The notes below the pieces were generated by a model. It was not told the DNA's origin. It saw nothing but the letters and a program-made list of their open reading frames with translations, and ran no database searches. This document shows, piece after piece, positions 4,274 to 16,229 of a DNA stretch of 44,125 nt. The translations under genes and the position numbers were made by a program. The stretch is taken from positions 1 to 44,125 of the forward strand of contig JACPXL010000057.1 in assembly GCA_016196555.1 (NCBI GenBank), read 5' to 3'. This stretch comes from Candidatus Omnitrophota bacterium (lineage in GTDB: Bacteria > Omnitrophota > Omnitrophia > Omnitrophales > Aquincolibacteriaceae). How positions within the stretch are numbered: the first letter of the stretch is position 1; each line of letters starts with the position of its first letter.

Positions 4274-5315
4274 CCGTTCGAAACAGGTTTTGCCGCTGCA
4301 AGAGGAATGGAAAAAACTTGCCCAGCGGCGTTTAGATGAACAAACCCGGCCGCAGGGAAGTTTGGGAGTGTTGGAAGAAGTGATCAGCCGGCTTGCATCG
4401 ATTCAGAAGACCGACCGCCCTCATATTGAAAATAAAAGAATTTTGATTTTTGCGGCCGATCACGGCGTGGAAGCCGAAGGCGTCAGCCGTTATCCGCGCG
4501 AAGTCACGCGGGCCATGGTGCTCAATTTTCTAAACGGCGGCGCCACCGTTAATGCTTTAGCGCGTCATGTGAATGCCCAAGTTCAAGTTGTGGATGTGGG
4601 CGTTGATGCTGAATTCCAAAAACATGATCGATTAATTCCGGCAAAAATCCGCCGGTCCACACGCAATATGACACAAGAACCTGCGATGACGGAAGAGGAA
4701 TTGTCGAGAGCTCTAAAAATTGGATGGGATTTGGTCCATCAATTAAAAGAAGAGGGAGTTGAAATTTTAGGGCTGGGAGAAATGGGAATTGCCAACACCA
4801 CGGCGGCAAGCGCGATGATAGCGGCTCTCACCGGAATTCCGGTTGATTCCGTGACAGGATACGGAACAGGATTAAAAGTCGATGAGAGAAATCATAAAGT
4901 CCAAGTGATTCAAAAGGCGCTTGATTTACACCGGCCCTTTTTGAAAAATCCTTTGGCGGTTTTGCAGCACGTGGGAGGTTATGAGCTCGCGGCTCTTACC
5001 GGAGCTATTCTGGCTGCGGCCGATTTGAGTTTGCCGGTGATTATTGACGGCTGGATTGTTTCGGCTTCTGCCTTAGCGGCCGTTTCTCTTAATCCACGGA
5101 TTAAAGATTATCTTTTTTTTTCCCATCAATCCGAAGAGCGCGGCCATGGACTGATTCTTGGAGAGTTGGGAGTACAGCCTCTTCTCAATCTTAAAATGCG
5201 GTTGGGAGAAGCCAGCGGTGCCGCGCTTGCCATGACCATTCTTGACGCCGCCATGAAAATTTATCACGAAGTTGCCACTTTTGAAAAAGCCCGTGTTGCC
5301 AATGCAAAATCCTAA
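4257..5315 (+). CDS. cobT: Nicotinate-nucleotide:DMB phosphoribosyltransferase CobT
   Basis: CobT (352 residues from this start) activates the lower ligand base, classically dimethylbenzimidazole, to its alpha-ribotide. Conserved blocks are RPQGSLGVLEEV, FAADHGVEAEGVSRYP, FLNGGATVNALAR, EMGIANTTAASA, SHQSEERGH and the C-terminal RLGEASGAALAM with the catalytic glutamate. The frame is open to an ATG at 4236, but the ATG at 4257 has an AGG six bases upstream and gives normal family length, so it is preferred. It overlaps cobU by 17 bases. No bluB is seen, so the identity of the lower ligand is open. Confidence 0.94.
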   Translation: MQDWINRSKQVLPLQEEWKKLAQRRLDEQTRPQGSLGVLEEVISRLASIQKTDRPHIENKRILIFAADHGVEAEGVSRYPREVTRAMVLNFLNGGATVNALARHVNAQVQVVDVGVDAEFQKHDRLIPAKIRRSTRNMTQEPAMTEEELSRALKIGWDLVHQLKEEGVEILGLGEMGIANTTAASAMIAALTGIPVDSVTGYGTGLKVDERNHKVQVIQKALDLHRPFLKNPLAVLQHVGGYELAALTGAILAAADLSLPVIIDGWIVSASALAAVSLNPRIKDYLFFSHQSEERGHGLILGELGVQPLLNLKMRLGEASGAALAMTILDAAMKIYHEVATFEKARVANAKS

Positions 5316-6738
5316 TTTAAAATACGGCTGTGTCATTGCCGGGACGCATTCCGGAGCCGGTAAAACCACCTGGTCTCTGGCATTGATGGCGCTCGCCCGA
5401 AAAAAAGGGCTTGAGGTTCAGCCTTTTAAAGTTGGGCCGGATTATATTGATCCCGGTTTTCACCATGCTATTTGCCATCCTCGCCGCTCGCGCAATCTGG
5501 ATCTTTATCTACTTTCCGAAAATACCGTAAAAGAAACTTTTTTGCGTCATACAGAAAATTCTGAAATGGCGATTATCGAAGGCGTCATGGGTCTTTATGA
5601 CGGTAAGGGAGCCAGCGGCCAAGAAGGCAGTACGGCACAAATGGCGAAATTTTTGAACCTTCCGGTTTTTTTGGTCATCGATGGTTCTGGAATGGCAGGA
5701 AGTGCCGCTGCTTTGGTCCTTGGCTTCCAAAAATTTGATTCTGATTTAAAACTGGCCGGTATTTTGATCAATCGTGTTGGCAGTGAAGGGCATTATCAAT
5801 GGTTGAAGCGTTCCATCGAAGAGAAAACGGGAATCCCTTGCCTTGGTTATTTACCTAAAGACAATTTTCTTTCGATTGGCGAAAGACATCTGGGGCTCAT
5901 GACAGCGCAGGAAGTCGATAAAAAATTGGAGAAGGCGCAACACGCTGCTTCATCACTGGAATCCCGTTTTGACTGGAAAAGTTTTATGAAAATTACGCGA
6001 ACTGAGAAAAGCGAGATTGCTTCGCTCACTTCGTTCGCTCGCAAAGACAACGTTGTCATTGCGAGGAGGCCAAAGGCCGACGAAGCAATCTCGGTTTCGC
6101 GAATCGGAATTGCTTATGACGCCGCATTTTCTTTTTATTATGAAGATAACTTTGATCTTTTGAAACAAGCCGGCGCGGAGCTTGTCTTTTTTTCTCCTTT
6201 GAAAGATTCTCAATTGCCAGAAAATCTGAATCTATTGTATTTGGGCGGAGGTTTTCCAGAGCTCTATACTCATCCTCTTTCTGAAAATCAGGGAATGATG
6301 GCCGCCATCCGGGATTTTTATCACAGTGGCGGATTTATTTATGCGGAATGCGGCGGCCTGATGTTTTTGGCTGAGGCTTTGATTGATTCCACGGGGCGAG
6401 AGTTTGCTATGGCAGGGCTTATTCCCGGCAAAGTTCGAATGATGGAAAGGCTTCAGAATTTCGGATATCATGAGGTCCGCGTGACGCAGGGAAACTTTCT
6501 TTTCCCGGAAGGACAAATTCTCCGCTCGCATGAATTTCATTATTCCTCATGGGATCAGGAAGGAAAAGTCCCGGCCCTCTATGAAATTGGGACACGCCGG
6601 GAAGGATTTCAAGGCGAGCGTTTGATCGCGAGCTATCAGCATTTGCATTTTGGTTCTGCGCCGGGGATTGCACGGCAAATGGCAGGGATCAGATCATGGA
6701 AAAAGAATTTCATCTTACAGCCAGCACCGATCAATTGA
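5302..6738 (+). CDS. cobB: Cobyrinate a,c-diamide synthase (CobB/CbiA)
   Basis: A 478-residue ATP- and glutamine-dependent amidase that amidates the a and c carboxylates of the corrin ring. The N-terminal dethiobiotin-synthetase-like domain has the P-loop GTHSGAGKTT (about 14-23), KVGPDYIDPGFH and EGVMGLYDG. The C-terminal class I amidotransferase domain has ECGGLMFLAE with nucleophile Cys350 and a late histidine in YQHLHFG. Between them, residues about 237-264 are encoded by a palindromic repeat (6012-6093) that stays in frame and sits in the interdomain linker. An alternative upstream ATG at 5272 is less likely because homology begins just after 5302. The 3' end overlaps the next gene by 43 bases. 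Confidence 0.93.
   Translation: MQNPNLKYGCVIAGTHSGAGKTTWSLALMALARKKGLEVQPFKVGPDYIDPGFHHAICHPRRSRNLDLYLLSENTVKETFLRHTENSEMAIIEGVMGLYDGKGASGQEGSTAQMAKFLNLPVFLVIDGSGMAGSAAALVLGFQKFDSDLKLAGILINRVGSEGHYQWLKRSIEEKTGIPCLGYLPKDNFLSIGERHLGLMTAQEVDKKLEKAQHAASSLESRFDWKSFMKITRTEKSEIASLTSFARKDNVVIARRPKADEAISVSRIGIAYDAAFSFYYEDNFDLLKQAGAELVFFSPLKDSQLPENLNLLYLGGGFPELYTHPLSENQGMMAAIRDFYHSGGFIYAECGGLMFLAEALIDSTGREFAMAGLIPGKVRMMERLQNFGYHEVRVTQGNFLFPEGQILRSHEFHYSSWDQEGKVPALYEIGTRREGFQGERLIASYQHLHFGSAPGIARQMAGIRSWKKNFILQPAPIN
6012..6093. repeat. Palindromic element, family I, copy A, in frame inside cobB
   Basis: An 82-base element bounded by perfect 13-base inverted arms (cgagattgcttcg at 6012-6024 and its complement at 6081-6093), with a second nearly perfect inverted pair in the centre (about 6038-6065). 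It is translated in the cobB frame as a stretch starting SEIASL and ending ADEAI. Copy B at 15881-15965 inside cobQ has the same arms and is read in the same frame. The element resembles a mobile palindromic repeat that has entered a tolerant linker. Confidence 0.85.
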
Positions 6739-7094
6739 CCTCTTTTCGCAGGGAGCTGGAGCTTTCTCTGCAGGAGATGGGGCTTTATGAAAAGGGATCG
6801 GGCGAAGTTATTCTTGCCGTGGACGAAGCTTTGACTAATATCATACGGCATACCTATGGCGGCAAAGGCGGAAAAATTGATGTGGCGGTCAATGATTTTA
6901 CCGACAGGGTGGAGATTAAAATAAAGGATTTTGGGGCGAAGTTCGATCCTTCCAAAATTCCTGCGCCCGAACTACCACCCAAAAAACCGGGCGGTTTGGG
7001 ACTTTATTTGATTAAGAAGTTAACGGACAAATCGGAATACAGTTTTCTGAAAGAGGGCGGGAACCAGCTTCTTTTGACGAAGTACAAAAAATAG
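6696..7094 (+). CDS. RsbW-like serine kinase / anti-sigma factor
   Basis: A 132-residue stand-alone GHKL ATPase of the RsbW/SpoIIAB class (HATPase_c_2). The N box is AVDEALTNIIRH (about 41-52), the G1 box is KDFGAKFDP, and the G2 box is PGGLGLYLIKKL. Such proteins phosphorylate a STAS-domain antagonist and bind a sigma factor or another partner. The next gene encodes a STAS protein with a target serine, and a SpoIIE-type phosphatase lies at 9782-11620, so a full partner-switching set is local. The start overlaps cobB by 43 bases. No sigma factor gene is seen, so the controlled partner is unknown. Confidence 0.87.
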   Translation: MEKEFHLTASTDQLTSFRRELELSLQEMGLYEKGSGEVILAVDEALTNIIRHTYGGKGGKIDVAVNDFTDRVEIKIKDFGAKFDPSKIPAPELPPKKPGGLGLYLIKKLTDKSEYSFLKEGGNQLLLTKYKK

Positions 7095-7097
7095 CCT

Positions 7098-7180
7098 GTC
7101 ATTCTGAAGCCCGAAGGGCTGAAGAATCTCGCGAGATCCTTCGCTCAGCGAAGCAGTCCTTTAGGATCGCTCAGGATGAC
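7098..7180. repeat. Palindromic element, family II, intergenic copy
   Basis: An 83-base imperfect palindrome fills most of the gap between the RsbW-like gene and the STAS gene. Outer arms are gtcattctga (7098-7107) and tcaggatgac (7171-7180), pairing with one mismatch. The inner part holds gaagaatctcgcgagatcct, which is itself nearly palindromic. It shares both parts with the copy at 14581-14650. When transcribed it should fold into a strong hairpin, which could insulate or attenuate expression between the two genes. Confidence 0.82.
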
Positions 7181-12765: not shown

Positions 12766-13498
12766 TTTTATGGAAGCCTTGCGCTTCCTCACCATTTTTC
12801 CTATTCCTTTGCCCAAAGGAGCTCGCCGTCATTCTGCTTCTGCGCTGGCGCATTCCATGCTGTTTTTCCCTTTGGTCGGTCTTTGCATCGGATTCATTTC
12901 TCTCGGGGTTTATTTTATTTTTAAATCCCATATTCCTTACACGATTTCTAATCTCTTCCTTTTAATTATCCCGGTGATTTTGAGCGGCGGGCTTCATCTT
13001 GACGGCTTCGCGGATTTTTTAGACGGGTTCTGCAGCGGCAAAAACAAAGAGGAAATGTTCAAGATTATGAAAGATTCCCGCATCGGAACTTTTGGTGCGG
13101 CCGGGCTTGTGCTGCTTTTACTTATTAAATACCAGCTTTTGATGGAGCTTCCATTAAAGGAAGCTGTGTTTTTAATGGCGCTTGCTTCTTCGCGCTGGAT
13201 TCAGGTCGCTCTATGTTTTTTTCTGCCGGCCGCGAAACCGTCCGAAGGTTTAGGCCGTGAAGTGGCGCACAAAGTGGGCGTGCGGGAATTGACAGGAGCA
13301 AGCATTTTCTTGTTTTTGATGACGATTTGGCTTCAGGGCCTAGGGTTAATTTTGTTTGTGGGGCTGGTTTTATTTTTGGCGCTTGTCAGTTGGATTTTTG
13401 TTCAGCGTTTCGGCGGCATTACCGGTGATTTAATCGGTGCGGCCAGTGAAATGACGGAAATTATGATTTATTTTTTAACCGTGGTTTTTTACGTATGA
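12749..13498 (+). CDS. cobS: Adenosylcobinamide-GDP ribazoletransferase CobS
   Basis: CobS (249 residues), the integral membrane cobalamin synthase that joins adenosylcobinamide-GDP with alpha-ribazole. Hallmarks are LRFLTIFPIP near the N-terminus, the aspartate-rich GGLHLDGFADFLDGFCSG, KDSRIGTFG, and RFGGITGDLIGA near the C-terminus. Five or six hydrophobic segments are visible. It completes, with cobU, cobT and cobC upstream, the nucleotide-loop pathway, although these genes are separated here by the Mla block. It overlaps cobD by four bases (ATGA). Confidence 0.94.
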   Translation: MPLLIDFMEALRFLTIFPIPLPKGARRHSASALAHSMLFFPLVGLCIGFISLGVYFIFKSHIPYTISNLFLLIIPVILSGGLHLDGFADFLDGFCSGKNKEEMFKIMKDSRIGTFGAAGLVLLLLIKYQLLMELPLKEAVFLMALASSRWIQVALCFFLPAAKPSEGLGREVAHKVGVRELTGASIFLFLMTIWLQGLGLILFVGLVLFLALVSWIFVQRFGGITGDLIGAASEMTEIMIYFLTVVFYV

Positions 13499-14667
13499 GT
13501 CAAAATCTACATGGCGGAGATTTGAAAAGTTTTGCCCGGAAGTTCAGACTCTCTGAAGAAAACATTTTGGATTTTTCGAGTAATATTAATCCTCTGGGCA
13601 TTCCTGAATTCGCACGCAGACTTTATCCTGATCTGGCGGAAGATTTAAGCCGTTATCCAGACCCGCGGGCGGAAGATTTACGGCAGGAAATCGCCCGACA
13701 TTATCCCGTTTTCCCCGAAAATGTGATTGCGGGAAATGGTTCCATGGCCATTTTGTCGCTTGCCATACAGACTCTTGCGCCTAAGCGCGCTATTTTGATC
13801 GAACCCTGTTTTTATGAGTACCGGGAAATTTTAAATCGCGAGGGCGCTGAAGTAAGAAGCGTTCTTCTGCGGGAGCGGGAAGGATTTGAATTTCCTTTGC
13901 CGGAAATCACGGGTGCTTTGCGAGGTGCCGATCTGATGGTGATTGGCCATCCCAACAACCCGACGGGGACGGCGGTCAAACGCGATCAATTGCTCGAACT
14001 GATTTCTGAAGCGCGCCGGCAAAATATTTTTGTGATTGTCGATGAAGCTTTCAGCGACTGGTCGCCGGAAATTTCCTTAGCCAAAGAAATTCGGGACAAC
14101 AGTTCTTTTTTGGTTGTTAAATCACTCACAAAATTTTATGCCTTAGCCGGAATAAGGTCTGGTTTTGGATTGGGGACCCGCCGTTTAATCGAAAAAATGC
14201 AAAGTGCCCAAGAGATTTGGTCCTGCAATCGTCTTGCTCAAAAATTATCGATTGCCGCCCTTCAGGACAATCAGTTCCGCCAGGAAACTCTGGATTGGTT
14301 CGGCAAAGAATCAGCATTTCTTCGCGAACAAATCAATCTCCTTGGAGAATTCCGGGCTTATCCCAGCCTTGCCAATTTTTTCCTGGTTAAAACTCTTCCG
14401 GCGATAGACAAAAAAACAAACTCCGCAACGCCATTTTTTGAATTCTTAGGCCAGCGTGGAATTTATGTCAGGCAAGCGGCCGGTTTTGCGGGACTAGATC
14501 ATGCCTATTTTCGCACCGCCATTCGCCTTCGCCATGAAAATGAAAAACTAATCCAGGCTTTAAAGGCGTGGATGAAAATACGTCATTCTGAGCCCCGAAG
14601 GGGCGAAGAATCTCGCGAGATCCTTCGGTCCTTCGGACCTCAGGATGACGGAGGGTATTTCTCATGA
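13495..14667 (+). CDS. cobD: Threonine-phosphate decarboxylase, CobD-type aminotransferase-fold enzyme
   Basis: A 390-residue PLP enzyme of the histidinol-phosphate aminotransferase fold. It opens with HGGDLKSFARKF and LDFSSNINPLG, has HPNNPTG, the VDEAFSDW aspartate motif, and the PLP lysine in SLTKFYALAGIRSGFG. In cobalamin synthesis it makes aminopropanol phosphate from threonine phosphate, the side chain added by CbiB. Residues 363 to about 386 are encoded by a family II palindromic repeat (14581-14650) and form a tail beyond the normal C-terminal helix. The gene overlaps cobQ by four bases (ATGA). CobC is the synonym in Pseudomonas nomenclature. Confidence 0.92.
   Translation: MSQNLHGGDLKSFARKFRLSEENILDFSSNINPLGIPEFARRLYPDLAEDLSRYPDPRAEDLRQEIARHYPVFPENVIAGNGSMAILSLAIQTLAPKRAILIEPCFYEYREILNREGAEVRSVLLREREGFEFPLPEITGALRGADLMVIGHPNNPTGTAVKRDQLLELISEARRQNIFVIVDEAFSDWSPEISLAKEIRDNSSFLVVKSLTKFYALAGIRSGFGLGTRRLIEKMQSAQEIWSCNRLAQKLSIAALQDNQFRQETLDWFGKESAFLREQINLLGEFRAYPSLANFFLVKTLPAIDKKTNSATPFFEFLGQRGIYVRQAAGFAGLDHAYFRTAIRLRHENEKLIQALKAWMKIRHSEPRRGEESREILRSFGPQDDGGYFS
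14581..14650. repeat. Palindromic element, family II, forming the cobD C-terminus
   Basis: A 70-base imperfect palindrome with outer arms cgtcattctgag (14581-14592) and ctcaggatgacg (14639-14650), one mismatch. Its core contains gaatctcgcgagatcc and the perfect hairpin ggtccttcggacc. It is read through in frame as the last part of CobD, and its right edge abuts a GGAGGG Shine-Dalgarno sequence for cobQ. It shares its arms and core with the copy at 7098-7180. Confidence 0.85.
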
Positions 14668-16229
14668 AAGCAAAGTCCTTAATGATTCTAGGAACGGCTT
14701 CTCACGTTGGAAAATCGGTTGTTGCTGCCGGACTGTGCCGTCTTCTTTCCGATGCCGGTTATAAGGTGGCGCCTTTTAAAGCCCAGAACATGTCGAATAA
14801 TTCTTTTGTCACACGTGAAGGCGGGGAAATGGGGCGGGCCCAGGTGGTTCAGGCTGAATGTGCGCGCGTGGAACCGCATGTCGATATGAATCCCATTTTG
14901 CTCAAACCATCTTCGGATAACGGTTCCCAGGTGATTGTTCACGGAAAATCCGTTGGCCATATGAGTGCAAAGGATTATTACAATGCCAAAGAAAAAATTT
15001 CCTCCGCGGTTCGAGAATCTTATGAACGATTAGCCTCGCAATACGAAATTCTTGTGATCGAAGGGGCGGGGTCGTGCGCGGAAATTAATCTCAAAGAAAA
15101 CGATATTGTGAATCTGAAAATGGCGGAATGGGCGGACGCGCGTTGTGTTTTGGTGGGGGATATAGACGCCGGCGGTATTTTTGCTTCGATGATCGGCACG
15201 CTGGATTTGCTGACGGAAAGCGAAAGGGCGCGTATCGACGGCCTCATCATTAATAAATTCCGCGGCGACCGGTCGCTTTTTGATCAGGGAATGGATTTTA
15301 TCGAAACAAAAACGGGAAAGAAAATCTTGGGCATGATTCCTCATGATCGCGAGCTTTGGATTGATGCGGAAGATGGAGTCGCTGCGGAAAGACAAAAATC
15401 CGAATCGAAAAAGACGGACGATATTTTGGATATTGCGATTATTTTGCTGCCGCGCATGTCGAATTTCACGGACTTCGAAATTCTTCGCCGCGAGCCGGGC
15501 ATTCATTTGCGTTATGTCCGTCATGCCGGTGAGATGGGGAATCCGGACCTTTTGATTTTGCCGGGAACAAAATCCACTCTGGGCGATTTGGAATATCTTC
15601 TCAGTTCTGGTTTTCAGGGAAAAATCAAAGCGTATTTTGAAAACGGCGGGAGAATATTGGGTGTTTGCGGCGGTTTGCAAATGCTGGGAGAAAAAATAAT
15701 CGATCTCCATGGTGTTGAATCACAAAAACCTGAAATGGCAGGACTTGGAATCTTTAAAATGACGACGGAGTTTTTTTCTGAAAAAGTGCTGCGTCGTCTC
15801 ACTCAACCGGTCAATCAAGTTTTATTTGGTTCCCGCATCGAAGGTGAAATTGAAGGCTACGAAATCCATATGGGGAAGAGCGAGATTGCTTCGCTCCATC
15901 AGTCGAATGCTGGGGCTCGCAATGACATGCCATTGCGAGGAGGCGAAGCCGACGAAGCAATCCCGCATTTATTCTTTGTCGACGCTTCGGGCCGTGCTGC
16001 CGGAACTTATATTCATGGTTTGTTCGATCGGGCTCCTTTTCGGCACTCTTTTTTGGCAGCACTCAGAAAATCTTGCGGCAAAGAAGGCGCTGCCGGTGGG
16101 CTGTCCTTTTCTGCGCAGGATTTCAAAGAAATTCACTATAACCGTTTGGCGCGGCTTCTCGCCGAAAATCTCGATTTGCTCTTTGTTCAAGAATGTCTGC
16201 GATTATCCTTGCCTTTGTCCTTGATTTAA
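14664..16229 (+). CDS. cobQ: Cobyric acid synthase CobQ
   Basis: CobQ (521 residues) amidates the b, d, e and g side chains of adenosylcobyrinic acid a,c-diamide. The N-terminal domain has MILGTASHVGKSVVAAGLCR, PFKAQNMSNNSFVT and VIEGAGSCAEINL. The amidotransferase domain has ILGVCGGLQMLGE with nucleophile Cys335, GYEIHMG, and the histidine in GTYIHGLFD. About 29 residues between these last two blocks (406-434) come from a family I palindromic repeat at 15881-15965, placed in a variable loop. A GGAGGG Shine-Dalgarno sequence lies eight bases before the ATG. The gene overlaps cbiB by 37 bases. Confidence 0.94.
   Translation: MKAKSLMILGTASHVGKSVVAAGLCRLLSDAGYKVAPFKAQNMSNNSFVTREGGEMGRAQVVQAECARVEPHVDMNPILLKPSSDNGSQVIVHGKSVGHMSAKDYYNAKEKISSAVRESYERLASQYEILVIEGAGSCAEINLKENDIVNLKMAEWADARCVLVGDIDAGGIFASMIGTLDLLTESERARIDGLIINKFRGDRSLFDQGMDFIETKTGKKILGMIPHDRELWIDAEDGVAAERQKSESKKTDDILDIAIILLPRMSNFTDFEILRREPGIHLRYVRHAGEMGNPDLLILPGTKSTLGDLEYLLSSGFQGKIKAYFENGGRILGVCGGLQMLGEKIIDLHGVESQKPEMAGLGIFKMTTEFFSEKVLRRLTQPVNQVLFGSRIEGEIEGYEIHMGKSEIASLHQSNAGARNDMPLRGGEADEAIPHLFFVDASGRAAGTYIHGLFDRAPFRHSFLAALRKSCGKEGAAGGLSFSAQDFKEIHYNRLARLLAENLDLLFVQECLRLSLPLSLI
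15881..15965. repeat. Palindromic element, family I, copy B, in frame inside cobQ
   Basis: An 85-base element with arms cgagattgcttcg (15881-15893) and cgaagcaatcccg (15953-15965), pairing 12 of 13, and an inner near-palindrome built on ctcgcaatgaca. It is the same element as 6012-6093 in cobB and is read in the same frame (SEIASL ... ADEAI), with three extra bases so that the host frame is kept. It lies in a loop of the CobQ amidotransferase domain. Confidence 0.85.

Follow-up and report, generated by a model that had tools for sequence, protein, structure and literature searches.

The cobB gene of this Omnitrophota bacterium contains an 82-bp palindromic element at positions 6012–6093 of the window (the whole 44,125-nucleotide stretch of DNA analysed here). 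Very probably, this segment is a copy of a dispersed, non-autonomous palindromic repeat of REP/MITE-like character with a CGTC tag, which multiplies as DNA in Omnitrophota. The element consists of two inverted units, occurs in multiple copies at unrelated sites, is absent from orthologues at the cobB site, and leaves the reading frame open.

Results

An in-frame palindrome within cobB

An 82-base element with perfect 13-base inverted arms had been predicted inside cobB, with the frame unbroken and the protein families on both sides intact, and each of these features was confirmed in the sequence. The relevant features are as follows.

5302–6738, plus strand: cobB (cobyrinic acid a,c-diamide synthase), host of the element; NCBIfam equivalog PRK01077, 505 bits (cut-off 254); Pfam CbiA and GATase_3 both intact; AlphaFold mean pLDDT 89.9
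6012–6093, no strand assigned: palindromic element of two inverted hairpin units whose GTC ends meet at the centre; encodes SEIASLTSFARKDNVVIARRPKADEAIS
6012–6051, minus strand: left unit; its head GTCTTTGC replaces GTCATTGC
6052–6093, plus strand: right unit, GTTGTCATTGCGAGGAGGCCAAAGGCCGACGAAGCAATCTCG; exact pattern match with a TGTC head tag

The arms lie at 6012–6024 (CGAGATTGCTTCG) and 6081–6093 (CGAAGCAATCTCG) and extend to 17 nt at 94% identity (6008–6024/6081–6097). A second inverted pair of 14 nt occupies the centre (6038–6051/6052–6065). As a single strand, the element folds far beyond dinucleotide shuffles (z −5.5 as DNA and −5.5 as RNA). The cobB frame is open throughout and the element contributes 28 encoded residues. 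Its core 12-mer, GAGATTGCTTCG, has 4 matches within the window compared to 0.41 expected, a number reached by no shuffle. An Rfam search with the element returned a chance match to miR158 alone (18.5 bits against a gathering threshold of 67), and a known RNA family was rejected as the identity of the element.

The element stands in place of the native linker

The closest CobB proteins are from Omnitrophota and share 55–61% identity. Between the DWKSFMK and RIGIAYD motifs, the CobB encoded here has 43 residues, compared to 27–61 in orthologues (median 32; 34 in the two nearest). The net gain is therefore about 9 to 11 residues, whether measured against the nearest orthologue or against the median, and subtracting the 28 element codons leaves 15 residues, fewer than in any orthologue. 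The gains in CobB and CobQ (see below) fall short of the element length, so some native residues were lost, either with the insertion or later. The element thus stands in place of the native linker in CobB and of a native loop in CobQ and is not a clean addition of 28 residues, with the proviso that these lengths were compared with distant homologues and may have differed before insertion. The prediction that the element adds about 28 residues holds for what is encoded; the linker itself grew by much less, since most of the native linker was replaced.

The element peptide was not present in any of the 89 CobB orthologue sequences aligned, a set that includes a few genes fetched twice from two collections; a homologous peptide at this position in orthologues from unrelated lineages had been named as evidence against an insertion. 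The genome closest by CobB, G037, carries 131 units and yet its CobB has a plain linker without the element. The AlphaFold model of CobB (32 sequences) consists of two confident domains, with the element region at about residues 237–264 as a weak stretch between them, modeled as a low-confidence helix and coil (block means of pLDDT 63, 49, and 78). Sequence matches in the PDB were found for neither CobB nor CobQ, and a fold search returned CTP synthases and single glutaminases only, which did not help to place the CobB linker.

Other copies in the window

Further elements in the window are listed here, together with two host genes.

7098–7179, no strand assigned: sister-family element, intergenic, just past the stop at 7094
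13495–14667, plus strand: aminotransferase, cobD-like by context and sequence, with a C-terminus lengthened by a sister-family element
14581–14650, no strand assigned: sister-family element (GTCATTCTGAG...GAAGAATCTCG, GTC ends outside), read as the C-terminal tail RHSEPRRGEESREILRSFGPQDDG
14664–16229, plus strand: cobQ (cobyric acid synthase), second host; NCBIfam PRK00784, 606 bits (cut-off 273)
15881–15965, no strand assigned: element copy in the GYEIHMG...GTYIHGL loop of CobQ, arms 12/13, encodes SEIASLHQSNAGARNDMPLRGGEADEAIP

The cobQ copy is indeed read in the same frame as that in cobB, as had been proposed, and shares the outer frame SEIAS...DEAIP. The CobQ loop has 49 residues compared to 31–44 in orthologues, a net gain of about 6. 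The aminotransferase has 51 residues from RTAIRLR to its C-terminus, compared to 23–37 in orthologues, which terminate about 14–28 residues sooner. Repeats are thus carried by three cobalamin genes of the window, namely cobB, cobQ, and the cobD-like aminotransferase gene that precedes cobQ.

Anatomy of the repeat unit

The unit is about 40 nt long and has the form (C/T)GTC-ATTGC-GAG-...-GAA-GCAAT-YC; the element consists of two such units in inverted orientation. Each unit forms a hairpin in which a 5-bp outer stem is followed by a GA/GAA internal loop and then by a variable inner stem, which has up to 7 pairs and is usually closed by a GAA-type triloop. In a sister family (the C-family), an ATTCT/AGAAT stem replaces ATTGC/GCAAT, a double compensatory change. 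Covariation was also detected within the stems, with double changes at 7 of 12 pairs (37 cells compared to 10.4 in shuffled data, and lost when the partner was slid), in an alignment whose rows were hand-picked from one length class and several genomes and whose five outer pairs, ATTGC/GCAAT, are fixed by the search pattern. The columns before ATTGCGA were counted. In the own genome of cobB (G000) these are T (47) or C (13) in 61 units, followed by G (61), T (56), and C (57); in G037 they are C in 93 of 99, followed by G (99), T (98), and C (98). In G000 the tail mostly reads Y-C-G; units of G037 mostly have Y-C-A, along with T and G.

Dimers of the family to which the cobB element belongs (the G family) are always inverted, with 25 inverted and no tandem pairs in G000 and 38 and none in G037. 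The GTC ends point outside in 17 and inside in 8 dimers of the own genome (34 and 4 in G037), and the copies in cobB and cobQ are of the rarer, GTC-inside kind. In small numbers, 7 of the 8 GTC-inside G-family dimers of G000 lie in long ORFs, compared to about half of the GTC-outside dimers.

Copies and hosts across the genome

The original prediction called for a genome search with copies tabulated by gene, frame, and position, and regarded the absence of further copies as evidence against it. In the own genome, a draft of 1.69 Mb in 97 contigs (86% complete, 5.6% contamination), 65 exact G-family units were found compared to none with a reversed-pattern control. A tolerant pattern delimited 96 elements, from the two families together, in the stretches around copies; many of these elements are intergenic. 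Thirty-five ORFs of at least 200 amino acids read through one or more elements. At least 21 of these ORFs are genes recognized by Pfam, 18 of them with family homology on both sides. The hosts include TsaD, GatB, CobB, CobQ, MtaB-like and MiaB methylthiotransferases, MtnA, DHFR, an aminotransferase, a NagZ-like protein, a chorismate-binding enzyme, AddA, AddB, ScpA, PcrA, MutY, IleRS, UDG, RnfC, an MqnE/CofH-like enzyme, and a BtuF-like protein, where names finer than the Pfam family are a reading of the sequence. In ScpA, UDG, and the NagZ-like protein, the element is outside the matched domain.

Where solved homologues were compared, the element falls between conserved blocks, as seen in DHFR, TsaD, MtnA, IleRS (two places), PcrA (two places), and MiaB. 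The stretch concerned has 44 residues in IleRS compared to 2 in the solved structure; the corresponding values are 36 and 3 as well as 38 and 4 for PcrA, 51 and 2 for MiaB, 27 and 6 for TsaD, and 29 and 9 for DHFR. The net gain is close to the full element length in IleRS, PcrA, and MiaB; TsaD and DHFR gained about 20 residues from an element that encodes about 27. The PcrA helicase (G000:C59:15767-18052, L162) and IleRS (G000:C74:9558-12665, L179) each contain three in-frame units or dimers. Elements, in several cases more than one, were also observed in large unnamed proteins with a GGFHxxG motif, encoded at G000:C50:1-2349 and G000:C83:4832-6820 and at G037:C2:12017-14407 and G037:C32:20800-23622; these proteins may be a favored or weakly constrained host family.

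Distribution among relatives

The pattern is present in 37 of 58 Omnitrophota genomes, with 1 to 203 units, and absent from the other 21. In G037, the in-frame hosts include valyl-tRNA synthetase, AddB, an agmatine-deiminase-like protein, and others, the names again being read from sequence. The AddB proteins of G000 and G037 share 41% identity overall; one site is filled in G000 and two in G037, and each is empty in the other. Because the genus is represented by this genome only and offers no empty DNA site from a close relative, the junctions and any target duplication could not be seen. A unit was also found in a Chloroflexi contig (L090), and the element family is probably not confined to Omnitrophota. 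At G037:C35:74728-76398 (L297), an element links glycosyltransferase-like and HAD-phosphatase-like sequences in one open frame; repeats of this type may fuse neighboring genes. By titles and abstracts, no literature report of such elements in Omnitrophota was found, and no paper containing the string GTCATTGCGAG concerned a bacterial repeat.

Use of the reading frames

The original prediction suggested, from the shared frame in cobB and cobQ, that the element may have evolved to be translatable. Genic G dimers have 3.3 open frames of 6 compared to 3.1 in dinucleotide shuffles, and other G dimers have 2.5 compared to 2.5; the sister family has fewer open frames than its shuffles. On these values, the idea of an element more translatable than chance was rejected. 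The suspicion about a common frame does have a real core. Antisense units in genes of G000 and G037 are in the E/G-I-A-S phase in 28 of 40 cases compared to 19.3 expected from the open frames (P = 0.0006), in a test that was chosen after the pattern had been seen, on two related genomes and with some unverified hosts in G037. Some element-spanning ORFs that were N-terminal or doubtful (e.g., C67_24785, C68_935, and C59_18514) were left out of this test. Among Pfam-verified genes of the own genome, the EIAS phase was used in 11 of 13 (P = 0.008). The used frame is weakly more hydrophilic (26 of 44 compared to 20.8 expected, P = 0.08). Selection among insertions is enough to account for the EIAS bias, without evolution of the element itself.

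Search for a mover

The sole Y1 transposase gene of the own genome has its own 37-bp terminal inverted repeats, which are unrelated to the element. This same gene is located in a separate, small transposon-like unit, with the terminal inverted repeats at 1255–1291 and 2033–2069 of L031 (89%). Across the 58 genomes, the number of Y1 genes did not correlate significantly with the number of units (Spearman 0.22, P = 0.09); two of the 15 unit-rich genomes lack a Y1 match. No Y1 match was found in G037, with its 131 units. Scanning 30 Y1 loci revealed a G element at one (in G012, where this element abounds) and a sister-family unit at another. On these grounds, a Y1/RAYT protein was rejected as a simple mover. 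The search identified neither a gene bounded by element ends nor a parent transposon.

Discussion

The cobB segment may have arisen as follows. Copies would enter genes with little regard for coding and would be purged unless the frame stays open and the site is a surface loop or linker. One copy may have hit the CobB linker between the ATP-binding and glutaminase domains, with native linker codons lost upon insertion or later, such that the linker would now consist mostly of the element, acting as a floppy spacer. The resulting CobB is predicted to still work. Movement may be due to a transposase, either of the host or acting in trans, or copies may arise when replication slips through the hairpin.

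Other explanations were weighed against a dispersed repeat. We consider it unlikely that a preferred frame evolved in the element, giving a benign, soluble peptide and hence tolerated insertions: the excess of the EIAS phase in both data sets points in this direction, but the number of open frames does not exceed that of shuffles and falls below it in the sister family, the trend in hydrophilicity is weak, and selection on the hosts produces a bias among surviving copies, quite apart from the use of related genomes in a test picked after the data had been seen. The strong RNA hairpin, its covarying stems, and the many intergenic copies would fit a repeat kept as an RNA or DNA device whose presence in coding sequence is incidental, and REPs elsewhere act as stabilizers of mRNA 3′ ends, attenuators, or gyrase sites (PMC3733652). 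Such a role is rather improbable given that two independent genomes have dozens of in-frame copies inside unrelated genes, that the sites differ between relatives, and that the 21 genomes without the pattern argue against a general function; covariation may also stem from the spreading of hairpin DNA.

That the peptide was recruited as a functionally selected linker of CobB and CobQ is very improbable, since the same type of peptide is found in IleRS, PcrA, DHFR, TsaD, MutY, and other proteins that have nothing in common, even though the greater part of the CobB linker now consists of it. The draft state and contamination of G000 could raise the concern of an assembly or binning artefact, which we regard as hardly credible because the same arrangement is present in the independent genome G037; moreover, the copies are not collapsed repeats, since frames are kept and inner stems differ from copy to copy.

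Beyond the dispersed repeat as such, it is possible, if doubtful, that Omnitrophota palindromes are a continuing supplier of loop and linker peptides, characterized by repeated entry into essential enzymes, displacement of native loop codons, a bias to one frame, and a mover other than Y1/RAYT. Coding palindromes are best known from reduced intracellular bacteria; finding dozens of copies in frame in each of two genomes of Omnitrophota points to a more general process. Many enzymes can be compared in natural pairs, one partner having the peptide inserted at a loop and the other lacking it, which makes the uptake of parasitic sequence by proteins, and the later loss of loop residues, testable. 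Annotation and structure prediction of such genomes should beware of repeat-derived peptides.

Among known systems, MITEs are likewise short, lack an ORF of their own, and have inverted ends, but for the Omnitrophota element neither a parent transposase with the same ends nor a target duplication could be shown. The GTAG REPs associated with RAYT proteins are also short hairpin units in inverted dimers; the tag here is GTC instead of GTAG, the element does not flank the Y1 genes, and their number does not track its copy number. The original prediction likened the segment to Rickettsia palindromic elements (RPEs, such as RPE-1; Ogata, Claverie). This parallel stands with respect to multiple copies, in-frame palindromes in many unrelated and presumably working genes, tolerated sites, and the CGTC tag, but not with respect to a clean addition or evolved translatability. 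The Rickettsia hosts are alphaproteobacterial, and the likeness is one of behavior. RPE-1 is longer than the Omnitrophota element.

The closest resemblance is to the CGTC-tagged REPs, which were described in five phyla that do not include Omnitrophota (Di Nocera, De Gregorio and Rocco, 2013; PMC3733652). More than half of their intragenic inserts are dimers or groups encoding 20–30 residues, no transposase is attached to them, and RPE-4 and RPE-6 of R. conorii belong to this class (PMC3733652). Shared features are the unpaired CGTC/TGTC head (CCTC also occurs in the class), a stem starting with AT, dimers in opposite orientation that outnumber tandem ones, copies inside genes, and the absence of a transposase gene flanked by the element, which for the Omnitrophota element refers to Y1 genes only. 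In the published class the tail is of 3 nt and mostly CCA (PMC3733652); the tail here is also short and reads mostly Y-C-G or Y-C-A, depending on the genome. Published families 1–4 have stems of 8–9 bp and loops of 4–5 nt (PMC3733652), whereas the 5-bp stem, internal loop, inner stem, and triloop of the Omnitrophota element place it outside these families. The element is best called a further family of the CGTC-tagged REP class that, by its behavior, works like the Rickettsia elements.
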